From an uncultured Algimonas sp. (GTDB lineage Bacteria; Pseudomonadota; Alphaproteobacteria; Caulobacterales; Maricaulaceae): DNA of 64,000 nt. The notes under the pieces were generated by a model. That model saw only the letters and a list, made by a program, of their open reading frames with translations. It was not told where the DNA came from and searched no databases. This document shows, piece after piece, positions 17,013 to 21,163 of the stretch. The number at the start of each line of letters is the position of its first letter. The first letter of the stretch is position 1. Position numbers and translations under genes: made by a program. The stretch lies in the NCBI GenBank assembly GCA_937923575.1, contig CALDUL010000001.1, positions 1-64,000 on the forward strand. The letters are read 5' to 3'.

Positions 17013-17699
17013 ATGAGTGATGAGCCCGAACTGATCCTGCGTGATTTGAACGACGACGACCTCGTCGAGCAGATGAAGGACGACCTCTATGACGGGATGA
17101 TCCCGGAAGTCACAGAGGGCACGCAAATCCTGCTCGAACGCGGATGGGACGCCAATCAAATCCTGACCGAGAGCCTGGTCGAAGCCATGCGCATCGTCGG
17201 TCTCGACTTCGCAGATGGCGTGTTGTTCGTGCCCGAAGTGCTGTCGGCCGCCAATGCGATGAAAGGCGGAATGGGCCTGCTGCGCCCGATCCTGGCGGCC
17301 AGCGAGAACCAGGTTACGGCGGGCCGCGTGGTCATTGGCACCGTCAAGGGCGACATCCACGATATCGGCAAGAACCTCGTCGGCATGATGCTGGAGGGCG
17401 CGGGCTTTGAAGTCTTCGATCTCGGCATCAACACCTCGCTGGACGAGTTCTTGGAGGCCATCGACAAGCACGATCCGCATATTCTCGGCATGAGCGCGCT
17501 GCTCACGACGACCATGCCCTATATGGGCGTGGTCATCGAAGACCTCGAAAAGCGCAATATGCTGAAGAACCTGCCCGTGATGGTCGGCGGCGCGCCGCTC
17601 AACCAGGAATTCGCCGACGCTATCAATGCCAATGCTTACGGCCCCGACGCCGCGACGACGGCCGAGCTCGCCAAGACCATCGTCGGCATCAACAGGTGA
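17013..17699 (+). CDS. Cobalamin (corrinoid)-binding methyl-carrier protein
   Basis: A 228-residue protein with two modules: an N-terminal helical cap (residues about 15-100, B12-binding_2 type, with FVPEVLSAANAMKGGM) and a Rossmann-like B12 domain with GDIHDIGKN (residues 113-121; His116 is the expected lower cobalt ligand), then GMSALLTTTM and VGGAPL. This equals the cobalamin module of MetH or the MtbC/MtgC corrinoid proteins. It carries the methyl group between the pterin methyltransferase downstream and an acceptor enzyme. It is the first gene of a four-gene operon; its stop overlaps the next start (GTGA). Confidence 0.93.
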   Translation: MSDEPELILRDLNDDDLVEQMKDDLYDGMIPEVTEGTQILLERGWDANQILTESLVEAMRIVGLDFADGVLFVPEVLSAANAMKGGMGLLRPILAASENQVTAGRVVIGTVKGDIHDIGKNLVGMMLEGAGFEVFDLGINTSLDEFLEAIDKHDPHILGMSALLTTTMPYMGVVIEDLEKRNMLKNLPVMVGGAPLNQEFADAINANAYGPDAATTAELAKTIVGINR

Positions 17700-18301
17700 G
17701 CACGCTCGACGCTCCCGCGAGGACTTTGGTCATCGCTTGCGGCGCTGTCGCGCGCGAGGTGAGGGCGGTCGCAGACCAGATCCCCGCGTTTGAGCTGCGT
17801 TGCATTCCCGCCACGCTGCATAACGTGCCGGCGAAAATCGTGCCTGCCATCGAAGCAATATTGGACTCTGAAGTGTCCGGGGGCGGCTATGACCGCACTC
17901 TGCTTGCGCTAGGTGACTGCGGCACAGGCGGGGGGATCGACCGACTGTGCGCACGCCGCGGCGTGACCCGCCTGCCAGGCGCGCATTGCTACGCCTTCTT
18001 TGCCGGATTGCCGGAATTCGACGCCATGATGGAAGAAGAGCTCGGCACCTTTTTCCTGACGGACTTCCTCGCACGACAGTTTGACACCATGGTCATGCAG
18101 CCGCTCGGTCTCGACCGCAAACCTGAACTGCGCGACATGTATTTCGGCCATTACAAACGGCTCGTTTTCCTGAGCCAACAGCCGGACGCCGCACTGCTCG
18201 CCAAGGCCAAGGCGGCCGCCGATACGCTGGGTCTGGCTTTCGAACACCGCCCGACTGGCCTCTCCCCCTTCGCGCGCGAACTCGCGCAACTCGCCGCATA
18301 A
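17696..18301 (+). CDS. DUF1638-family protein
   Basis: A 201-residue protein. Family features are VIACGAVAREV at the N-terminus, LPATLHNVP-like CIPATLHNVP, and LLALGDCGTGGGID followed by GAHCYAFFAG. Several Cys and His residues are conserved, consistent with a metal site. DUF1638 proteins recur next to corrinoid methyltransferase genes, but no biochemical role is established. The GTG start at 17696 overlaps the corrinoid protein stop (GTGA), so it is translationally coupled to it. It is probably an accessory factor of methyl transfer or of cobalamin loading. Confidence 0.85.
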   Translation: MSTLDAPARTLVIACGAVAREVRAVADQIPAFELRCIPATLHNVPAKIVPAIEAILDSEVSGGGYDRTLLALGDCGTGGGIDRLCARRGVTRLPGAHCYAFFAGLPEFDAMMEEELGTFFLTDFLARQFDTMVMQPLGLDRKPELRDMYFGHYKRLVFLSQQPDAALLAKAKAAADTLGLAFEHRPTGLSPFARELAQLAA

Positions 18302-18311
18302 GGAGCCCCCA

Positions 18312-19235
18312 ATGGCCCGCACCGTTCTCACCTCTGCGACGCAGGAAGTCATCATCGGCTTCGATCAGCCCTTTGTCATGATAGGCGAGCGCATCAATCC
18401 GACCAACCGCCCGAAGTTCTCCAAGGAGCTGAAGGACGGCAATTACTGGCGCGTCGTGAAAGAAGCCAAGACACAGGTCGAAGCGGGTGCACAAGTGCTC
18501 GACGTCAATGTCGGCGTGCCGCTCTCGGACGAAGCCAAGATCATGAGCGAAGTCATCACCCTGCTGCAGACCGAAGTGCAATGCCCGCTCGTCATCGACA
18601 GCTCCGTCAAACCCGCGCTGGAGTCCGGCCTTGAAGCCTATCAGGGCCGCCCGCTGGTCAACTCCGTGACAGGCGAGGAGGAGAGCCTCGAGTTTGTCCT
18701 GCCGCTGATCGCCAAACATGACTGCGCGGTCGTAGCCATTTCCAATGACGACACAGGTATTTCAGAGGATCCCGATGTCCGCTTCGAGGTTGCCAAGCGC
18801 ATAGTCGAGCGCGCGGCGGATTACGGCATCAAGCCGGAGGACGTCGTCGTCGATCCGCTTGTCATGCCGGTCGGTGCGATCAATTCGGCTGGTCGAGACG
18901 TGTTCAAGCTTATCCGCCGTCTTCGCGAAGAGCTCGGAGTCAACACGACTTGCGGCGCGTCCAACGTCGCCTTCGGCCTGCCCAACCGCCACACCGTCCA
19001 CAACGCCTTTCTGCCCATGCTCCAAGCCGCTGGCATGACCAGCGCAATCCTCAACGTCTATGACGAAGGCCTCGTGCCTGCGATCAAAGCCGGCGACATG
19101 CTCGCGGGCAACGACCCCGACTGCGCAAACTGGATCAACGCCAACCGTCCCAAGCCCGCTCCTGGTGAAGAAGCCGGTGGGCGTCGCGGTGGCGGCCGCC
19201 GGGGTGGCCGCGCGGGTCGCGGGCGTCGCGGCTAG
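18312..19235 (+). CDS. Methyltetrahydrofolate:corrinoid methyltransferase (pterin-binding domain)
   Basis: A 307-residue protein with a TIM-barrel pterin-binding domain: MIGERINPTNRPKF, GAQVLDVNVG, PLVIDSSVKPALESGL, PLVNSVTGEEE, DPLVMPVG, and TTCGASNVAFGLPNR. This is the MeTr fold, equal to the folate module of MetH, which moves a methyl group from methyltetrahydrofolate to Co(I)-cobalamin. A strong AAGGAG ribosome-binding site precedes ATG 18312. The last 25 residues are an Arg/Gly-rich tail (GGRRGGGRRGGRAGRGRRG) outside the fold; a similar tail ends the next protein. Confidence 0.93.
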   Translation: MARTVLTSATQEVIIGFDQPFVMIGERINPTNRPKFSKELKDGNYWRVVKEAKTQVEAGAQVLDVNVGVPLSDEAKIMSEVITLLQTEVQCPLVIDSSVKPALESGLEAYQGRPLVNSVTGEEESLEFVLPLIAKHDCAVVAISNDDTGISEDPDVRFEVAKRIVERAADYGIKPEDVVVDPLVMPVGAINSAGRDVFKLIRRLREELGVNTTCGASNVAFGLPNRHTVHNAFLPMLQAAGMTSAILNVYDEGLVPAIKAGDMLAGNDPDCANWINANRPKPAPGEEAGGRRGGGRRGGRAGRGRRG

Positions 19236-19249
19236 GCGCCTCCGCCTCG

Positions 19250-21163
19250 ATGACCCACACGCTGATCTTCACGCCGTCTGGCGTTCAGACGACTGCCGAG
19301 CCCGGTGAGTCCGTCTATGACGTTGCCTTGCGCGCAGGCGTGGACATCAAGTCGATCTGCGGCGGCACGGGGTTGTGCCACCGCTGCCAGTGCAGCTTGC
19401 AGACGGGAGACCACGCGAAGTTCAAGCTCTCCGTGACAGACGACGCGCTGTTCAAGCTGCGCCCGGCAGAGAAGAAGGCGATCCATGACGGAGACATGGC
19501 GGAAGGCCTGCGCCTCGCCTGCCGCGCCAAGGTCATGGGCGATGCCGTCATAGATATCCCGCCGCATGCCCGCCACACGCAGAGCGCTATTCGCAAGGCC
19601 GCGTTCGATCTACCGGGACCCATCGCCCCGCCGGTCAAGCTCCACATGGTACAGCTGCCCGAACCGACGCTGGAGGACCATATCTCGGATACGGAAAGCC
19701 TGTCCGAACGGCTTGGTGGCTTGCGCGTTTCGCCAAACGTCACACTGAAGATTCAGCCGCTGCTGGCCGAGCACAAACGCAAGCTCATCGCCGTCGTGCG
19801 CGACGAGGCCGAGGTCATCGACGTCTGGGCGCCGGACCGCGAGGGGCTTTTCGGTGCGGCGGTGGACATCGGCTCCACATCGGTCGCGCTTTATCTCTAT
19901 GATCTGGTGACTGGCGCGCTGGTCCACCAGTCGTCGGCCATGAATCCGCAGATCCGCTACGGCGAAGACGTGATGAGCCGGGTCAGCTACGTCATGATGA
20001 ACAAAGACGGTCGCGAGAAGCTGGCCGGTGCCGTGCAGGGACAGCTGCGCGACATGCTGTCTGATGCGCGCGAGGCTGTCGGCGCAGAGGTCGATCAGGT
20101 GCTGGAAATGGTCTGCGTCGGCAATCCGATCATGCACCACACACTCATCGGCGTGGACCCGACGCCGCTGGGGCAGTCGCCCTTTACGCTGGCTGTGAAG
20201 GACTGGCTCGACCTGCCGGGCGATCAGCTCGATCTCGGTATGGCGCGGCACGCTCGCGTGTCGCTACTGCCGCTGATCGGCGGGCATGTCGGCGCGGACA
20301 CGGCAGCCGCCTATCTCACCCAGATGGACCGCATGAAAGACCGCTCCGTTCTGCTGGTCGACATCGGGACCAATGCGGAGATCGTGCTGACCCACAACGG
20401 ACGGGTGGCCGCGGCCAGCTCACCGACAGGCCCGGCGCTGGAAGGCGCGGAGATCAGCTGCGGTGTGCGCGCGTCCGAGGGTGCGATCGAGCGACTGCGC
20501 ATCGACCCCGTTTCCTTCGCCGCCAAGGTCAAGATCATCGGCCACGACGAATGGCTGACGGACGAGACGATTGGTGATCACGCTGTGCCCGGTCTGTGTG
20601 GCTCCGCCATTTTCGAGGTCATGGTAGAACTGGCCCGTGCTGGGCTTATCGACCGATCCGGTCTGTTCCGCCCAGAAACCGCACCCGACCGCTTTACCCA
20701 GGACGGCAATGTCCAGACCTACCGCGTGATCGGCGACATCACCCTGCGCCAGACCGATATCCGCGCCGTGCAGCTGGCTAAGGCCGCGCTTATGGCAGGC
20801 GCGCGCCTGGTGGCCGAAGAGCTCGACTGCGAGGCATTTGACGAAGTGCTGCTGGCTGGCGCTTTTGGCACGCACCTCGACCCGGCCTATGTCGCGGAGA
20901 TTGGCATCATCCCGCACAACGGCGCAGACACGATCGAGGCGGTTGGCAACGCAGCCGGCATGGGCGCGGCCATGTGCCTGACGGACGTCGCCGCACGCGA
21001 CCGCATCCGCGCCGCCGTCGAAGATGTGGTCAAGATCGAGACCGCGCTTGAACCGCGCTTCCAGGACTACTTTGTGGAGGCCATGGCCTTTCCGAGCGCA
21101 CCGGAAGGCACGTCGAGCTCGCGCGGTGGTGGTCGTCGCGGAGGGCGACGTCGGCGAGGTTAG
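19250..21163 (+). CDS. Corrinoid reductive reactivase (2Fe-2S ferredoxin plus ASKHA/DUF4445, RamA/RACo-like)
   Basis: A 637-residue protein. The N-terminal plant-type ferredoxin domain holds cysteines 37, 43, 46 (CGGTGLCHRC) and 91, ligands for one 2Fe-2S cluster. After a linker, an ASKHA ATPase fold starts near residue 200 (AVDIGSTSVALYLYD) with a second phosphate loop VDIGTNAEIVL and GLCGSAIFE, then the DUF4445 region. Such proteins reduce inactive Co(II) to Co(I) with ATP hydrolysis and reset corrinoid methyltransferases. The C-terminus is a short Arg/Gly tail (SSRGGGRRGGRRRRG). It is the last gene of the operon; its stop overlaps the convergent glnE stop. Confidence 0.93.
   Translation: MTHTLIFTPSGVQTTAEPGESVYDVALRAGVDIKSICGGTGLCHRCQCSLQTGDHAKFKLSVTDDALFKLRPAEKKAIHDGDMAEGLRLACRAKVMGDAVIDIPPHARHTQSAIRKAAFDLPGPIAPPVKLHMVQLPEPTLEDHISDTESLSERLGGLRVSPNVTLKIQPLLAEHKRKLIAVVRDEAEVIDVWAPDREGLFGAAVDIGSTSVALYLYDLVTGALVHQSSAMNPQIRYGEDVMSRVSYVMMNKDGREKLAGAVQGQLRDMLSDAREAVGAEVDQVLEMVCVGNPIMHHTLIGVDPTPLGQSPFTLAVKDWLDLPGDQLDLGMARHARVSLLPLIGGHVGADTAAAYLTQMDRMKDRSVLLVDIGTNAEIVLTHNGRVAAASSPTGPALEGAEISCGVRASEGAIERLRIDPVSFAAKVKIIGHDEWLTDETIGDHAVPGLCGSAIFEVMVELARAGLIDRSGLFRPETAPDRFTQDGNVQTYRVIGDITLRQTDIRAVQLAKAALMAGARLVAEELDCEAFDEVLLAGAFGTHLDPAYVAEIGIIPHNGADTIEAVGNAAGMGAAMCLTDVAARDRIRAAVEDVVKIETALEPRFQDYFVEAMAFPSAPEGTSSSRGGGRRGGRRRRG

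Follow-up and report, generated by a model that had tools for sequence, protein, structure and literature searches.

Arginine-rich terminal tags on the enzymes that act on the corrinoid protein of a split B12-dependent methionine synthase, and their possible role in docking

In this study, we show that a short end cluster of basic residues, mostly Arg, is a conserved property of the enzymes that act on MtgC, the stand-alone corrinoid protein of a split B12-dependent methionine synthase. Among the families tested, this tag is confined to four corrinoid-partner families, namely the pterin methyltransferase MtgD, the corrinoid reactivase, the homocysteine methyltransferase MtgE, and the betaine/trimethylamine methyltransferase MtgB. 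Moreover, we find that the tags and an acidic N-terminal extension of MtgC occur together by clade, a pattern that may go back to a single event. It is probable, in our judgement, that the tags are disordered, Arg-rich electrostatic docking tags which mark the enzymes that act on the shared corrinoid protein.

The split synthase operon and its two basic tails

The window, by which we mean the whole 64,000-nucleotide stretch of DNA analyzed from an uncultured Algimonas sp., encodes on the + strand, in this order, the corrinoid protein, a DUF1638 protein, a pterin methyltransferase, and a reactivase. MtgC, the corrinoid (B12-binding) hub protein (17013..17699, +; 228 aa; PF02607 and PF02310), is 59-89% identical to 30 orthologues, and its nearest NCBIfam models are MtgC/MtbC, with scores under their cut-offs. 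The DUF1638 protein (17696..18301, +; PF07796) has no Arg tag. It is followed by MtgD, the pterin-binding methyl-THF:corrinoid methyltransferase (18312..19235, +; 307 aa; PF00809), which scores 337.8 bits against NF005719 (cut-off 259), and by a RACo/RamA-like ATP-dependent corrinoid reactivase (19250..21163, +; 637 aa; PF14574, PF17651, PF17650) with the solved relative RACo 3zyy. The operon, composed of MtgC, DUF1638, MtgD, and the RamA/RACo-like reactivase, is that of a split B12-dependent methionine synthase: MtgD is stand-alone and over the NF005719 cut-off, MtgC is stand-alone with its cap and B12 domains, and the reactivase and DUF1638 lie alongside. The stand-alone, Bhmt-like homocysteine methyltransferase MtgE is unlinked to the operon (G000:C97) and is over the cut-offs of both PF02574 and NF005718. 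In this genome, a fragmented assembly that is 85% complete, searches found neither MetE (PF01717) nor a full MetH, MtgE was the only PF02574 protein, and MtgB (PF06253) had no match either here or in two Algimonas genomes. The split synthase may be the sole methionine synthase of this organism, unless the incomplete assembly misleads, and the likeliest reading is a methionine-only version of the system, the absence of MtgB being provisional at this completeness.

The original prediction had claimed that MtgD and the reactivase end in nearly identical Arg/Gly-rich tails, and re-reading both ends bears this out. The MtgD tag (19164..19232, +) ends in GEEAGGRRGGGRRGGRAGRGRRG at the stop codon and the reactivase tag (21113..21160, +) ends likewise in SSSRGGGRRGGRRRRG, the final stretches of the two proteins being GGRRGGGRRGGRAGRGRRG and RGGGRRGGRRRRG, respectively. 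In the structural model the MtgD tail is predicted to be disordered (pLDDT < 50 at residues 289-307). The nonapeptide RGGGRRGGR is exactly common to both tails in this genome, and the local alignment of the two peptides exceeds that of composition shuffles (P 0.001). Such ends are rare, since only 3 of the 47 called genes of the window reach at least 5 Arg per 14 residues within their last 30, the third being a DUF1289 protein. As a background, 20 stretches of 20 kb (400 kb) were taken from a sampled genome that carries the tag (G271), where 9 of 295 closed genes (3%) reach 5 Arg and none reaches 6; these counts, as well as the N-terminal counts given below, rest on a simple gene caller.

The DUF1289 protein (PF06945; 16670-16939, - strand) is small, lies just upstream of mtgC on the opposite strand, and has the basic tail EERRKRRRTNRRRS. 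DUF1289-like proteins are also present near the operon in three other loci (L004, L007, and L014).

It had also been proposed that the likeness of the tails arose by duplication of the 3' end of one gene into the other, for which the exactly shared nonapeptide would speak. However, the DNA of the two tails shows no likeness beyond that expected from codon choice, and it scores below sequences resampled with synonymous codons (16, null mean 22; P 0.99). Moreover, both tails are found in orthologues across two phyla, with differing sequences. We therefore rejected gene-to-gene copying, which we regard as extremely improbable. When the 23-residue MtgD tail peptide was used as a query against the genome, it matched MtgD alone and missed the tails of the reactivase and MtgE; because known tags were missed, this search is no guide to the number of tagged proteins, and others may have escaped it.

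Distribution of the tags among orthologues and families

Orthologue sets were gathered by their folded cores, using tail-less queries or profiles, and one protein per genome was scored for at least 5 Arg in a 14-residue stretch after ORFs open at an end, with less than 80% query coverage, or under a core bit-score floor had been left out. By this rule the C-terminal tag is present in 114 of 119 MtgD orthologues, in all 40 MtgE sampled, and in 88 of 99 reactivases, a figure which rises to 99 of 99 if at least 5 Arg plus Lys are counted. In MtgB the tag is at the N-terminus instead (84/87), and one of the sub-threshold proteins (N060) has a misplaced start. None of 67 DUF1638 orthologues is tagged, and the opposite termini of all six families never reach 5 Arg. 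The tagged MtgD and reactivase proteins are nearly all proteobacterial. The 80 named loci returned by an initial tail-less MtgD search gave the same picture: every MtgD tail was Arg-rich, and each reactivase tail with a covered end had an abundance of Arg or of Arg and Lys.

Whether both tails co-occur in orthologues had been put forward as the check on a shared function. In the 99 genomes in which MtgD and the reactivase were both scored, the two tails are found together in 84 (at least 5 Arg), in 96 (at least 5 Arg plus Lys), or in all 99 (at least 4 Arg plus Lys), and random loss of a single tail was not seen. Four MtgD proteins of Rhizobiaceae have fewer than 5 Arg plus Lys in the stretch scored.

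The prediction was made beforehand that the unlinked MtgE would carry the tag as well, and the sole PF02574 protein of the genome, on contig 97, ends in AEGAVGRRGARGGARGGRRRG. We then sampled 299 genomes from the phylum and found 39 (the Algimonas genome included) to be over the MtgD profile cut-off. By reading, an Arg-rich tail is present on MtgD in 39 of 39, on the reactivase in 39 of 39, and on MtgE in all 38 genomes that have it, the remaining one (G086) having only MetH; none of 12 PF02574 paralogues from the drawn genomes has an Arg tail. Twenty further genomes yielded 30 PF02574 loci, 5 of which were missed by the motif filter. The 25 that were read comprise 11 MtgE-type proteins, all Arg-rich, and 14 MetH pieces or MmuM-like proteins that show no tag in the portion read (4 run off the locus). 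The original prediction was right about MtgD and the reactivase as far as it went, but it had missed the split methionine synthase and at least two more tagged families, MtgE and MtgB.

MttB-family proteins number up to nine per genome. We read 135 non-redundant members from the named loci and the drawn genomes, with identities to the seed as low as 25%, and every one has 5 Arg or more in the segment of up to 45 residues that precedes the fold, though this count may take in residues upstream of the true start and the stricter figure is the 84 of 87 given above. One tagged MtgB, that of Sinorhizobium meliloti, corresponds to the solved chain 4yyc along its full 524 residues.

Short basic tails can address proteins to the membrane, to the nucleoid, or to other acidic partners, so that the tags might serve a destination unrelated to the corrinoid. 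The tagged families, however, are the partners of the corrinoid protein, and of the folate-pathway neighbors that the same operons encode, just one protein is tagged at the C-terminus (MetF2, 0/61; MTHFR_C, 1/47). N-terminal Arg matches in these two families (9/61 and 6/47, respectively) were judged to lie inside the fold. Addressing of this kind seems to us improbable. A scan for more tagged families reduced 4434 non-family ORFs to 552 candidates, and the best 60 of the candidates with tagged kin elsewhere look like wrong-frame ORFs or tag-less genes, with the exception of DUF1289-like proteins.

It could also be argued that the tails are functionless ballast, compositional or inherited, in the form of CGC and GGC codons that run together where genes of GC-rich genomes end. 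The window is indeed GC-rich, CGC and GGC are its most frequent Arg and Gly codons, and the tails vary in sequence and length among orthologues. Against this, the tails persist below 45% GC, where Arg is still favored over Lys (Arg 0.83 in the MtgD tag compared with 0.51 in the core); only the 3% of background genes mentioned above reach the threshold; paralogues of the same fold are without tails; and no loss is seen among the 57 tagged MtgD proteins of the tree described below. We consider ballast very unlikely. What does follow base composition is Gly, whose share of the tag drops with GC (MtgD, 0.26 to 0.10; reactivase, 0.19 to 0.03), the basic residues being retained. An RGG motif as the conserved feature, of the sort expected in RGG/RG RNA-binding proteins, was therefore rejected, given that Gly is lost in low-GC orthologues and the basic residues are kept.

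The acidic extension of MtgC and the proposed docking

MtgC begins with a conserved acidic stretch of the kind MSDDEIILSELSDDELVQQMHDDLYDG. In the Algimonas protein this extension comprises residues 1-13, MSDEPELILRDLN (17013..17051, +), which in the model precede the first long helix (residues 14-26) and appear flexible, with low pLDDT at residues 1-10. The net charge of the first 26 residues lies between -7 and -13 in 80 of 80 orthologues. The solved corrinoid proteins 1y80 and 4jgi match MtgC from residues 19-20 onward, with 4-8 chain residues ahead of the match. However, the whole of MtgC is acidic (median pI 4.35), so that the extension need not be the binding site. The net charge of the extension varies with that of the tails in the expected direction when raw values are compared (rho -0.25 to -0.39), but with phylogenetic contrasts within the tagged clade the correlation is not significant (r about -0.16, P 0.17-0.21). 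On the Paracoccus methylovorus plasmid p1 (L404), the MtgC start is milder (-5) and the MtgD tag is weaker than most, which makes it a possible natural case of joint weakening of the tag and the acidic extension.

The association by clade was followed in a second phylum, the Actinomycetota, taken as the phylum of an Acidimicrobiales MAG; of 246 genomes searched there, 108 have an MtgD-like match. Thirty loci were read there, and the 16 nearest to the MtgD of the window have an Arg-rich tail while the 14 more distant ones have none. Wider stretches from 20 of these genomes fall into 15 with tags and an acidic MtgC and 5 without tags in which the same genes lie together. In the tagged genomes, the tag is present on MtgD in 15 of 15, on the closed reactivases in 14 of 14, and on MtgB in 11 of 12 with at least 5 Arg (the other has 4), and the MtgC start has a charge of -8 to -13. 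In the untagged genomes, none of the 5 MtgD and none of the 5 reactivase proteins reaches the threshold (highest counts 3 and 4), MtgB is without a tag in two genomes and ambiguous in a third, and of the MtgC starts two could be aligned, with charges of -1 and 0, two were not alignable at the start, and one MtgC was not found. On an MtgD tree of 71 rows, built without the tails, the tag is a single change with a support of 98, and none of the 57 tagged rows has lost it. Since there is one change on this tree, the co-occurrence of tag and extension may go back to a single shared ancestor. The tags are old and are kept even where MtgB was not found.

Some loci of this set have features of their own. 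An Arg-rich stretch ahead of MtgB in L378 was tentatively judged to lie outside the gene. L334 and L377 (the latter being G391) have a long, odd extension beyond the MtgD tag, which in L377 may reflect a frameshift or an assembly error. Several of the distant MtgD-like matches (e.g., G390:C10 and G519:C172) have an in-frame stop codon (TAG, TAA, or TGA).

Tails with such an Arg/Gly-rich composition are frequent among RNA-binding and phase-separating proteins, and one could therefore suppose that the tags drive co-assembly into a cluster or condensate via RNA, polyphosphate, or multivalent contacts, with MtgC as a client rather than a specific receptor. One tag on several proteins of a pathway would fit a scaffold of this sort. 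Nevertheless, the loss of Gly as GC falls, with the basic residues kept, speaks against it, as does the lack of C-terminal tags on the possible clients DUF1638 and MetF2, and it leaves unexplained why the acidic extension of MtgC accompanies the tags. We hold co-assembly to be rather unlikely, yet the least so of the alternatives to docking that we weighed.

Docking on MtgC is the explanation that we prefer. The original suggestion that the common partner is the acidic corrinoid protein gains from the presence of tags on four families that act on the corrinoid, from their absence on DUF1638, and from their co-occurrence by clade with the MtgC extension; that the tags bind MtgC, at its acidic extension, and so speed methyl transfer or reactivation, we infer. 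Most bacteria make their B12-dependent methionine synthase as a single large protein, MetH, in which the homocysteine, folate, B12, and reactivation modules are tethered in one chain. In the split system these modules are separate proteins, which would have to find each other without a covalent tether. Each enzyme would do so by its short basic tag, C-terminal on MtgD, MtgE, and the reactivase and N-terminal on MtgB, which would bind the acidic N-terminal extension of MtgC weakly and reversibly. Such binding would raise the local enzyme concentration at the hub while letting the partners exchange, and could thereby stand in for the tether of MetH. In other species, the same docking may serve the demethylation of betaine or methylamines.

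Relation to known systems and significance

The split synthase itself has already been described, in 2018 and 2025, and it is the tags on corrinoid-partner enzymes for which the literature searched holds no description. In Phaeobacter inhibens, MetH is split into three proteins accompanied by a RamA-like reactivase and a DUF1638 protein, and mutants in the split synthase are rescued by methionine (Price et al., 2018; PMC5764234). That system agrees with the present one in all five parts (the homocysteine and pterin modules, the corrinoid protein, the RamA-like reactivase, and DUF1638), and the passages on its domains and fitness make no mention of Arg-rich termini (PMC5764234). Work on Ruegeria pomeroyi introduced the names MtgC for the corrinoid protein, MtgD for the pterin module, MtgE for the homocysteine module, and MtgB for the glycine betaine methyltransferase (PF06253), and it showed that the synthesis of methionine and the demethylation of betaine have MtgC and MtgD in common (Mausz et al., 2025; PMC12478193). 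The MtgBCDE system of that organism belongs to the same gene families, with MtgC as a shared hub, and differs in that MtgB was not found in the 85% complete Algimonas genome; a keyword look at the main text of PMC12478193 gave no 'arginine', 'tail', or 'disordered'. Literature searches on corrinoid and trimethylamine methyltransferases combined with arginine-rich, in which the coverage of subscription journals was partial, likewise found no description of Arg tags.

Proteins of the same folds have been solved from anaerobic corrinoid systems (1f6y, 3zyy, 2qne, and 1y80). Anaerobic corrinoid systems carry out the same kind of reaction as the split synthase. The MeTr (1f6y) and RACo (3zyy) chains end 6-11 residues past the match, and the chain of Desulfitobacterium hafniense MtgB (2qne) begins 15 residues before it, which leaves little room for a comparable tag, although this comparison takes the crystallized chains as they stand and they may have been cut; the corrinoid protein 1y80 is without the acidic extension. 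Canonical MetH performs the same chemistry as the split synthase with its modules covalently tethered. MetH-type PF02574 proteins from the same genomes have no Arg tags at those ends that were read, several full-length MetH proteins running off the locus. Short disordered charged segments that bring enzymes to a hub are known from CsoS2 and Rubisco in alpha-carboxysomes and from polyketide docking domains. The present case differs in that one type of tag recurs on four unrelated enzymes belonging to a single soluble pathway.

More tentatively, and with less confidence than we place in docking itself, the tag could be a transferable charge address, such that any enzyme bearing a short Arg-rich tag, whether N- or C-terminal, would join the pool of one acidic corrinoid protein. 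If true, aerobic bacteria would be able to connect a large number of methyltransferases (MttB paralogues reach nine per genome here) to a single methyl carrier and a single reactivase, and the split enzyme would be a dynamic, competitive metabolon and not a fixed complex. This bears on how a split B12 enzyme gives its unstable Co(I) carrier the right partner, in a pathway through which abundant marine bacteria process glycine betaine and methionine (PMC12478193). It is possible that the common tag, of about 20 residues, predicts which uncharacterized proteins use the hub, and it may serve as a small, portable label with which enzymes could be recruited to a cofactor carrier.
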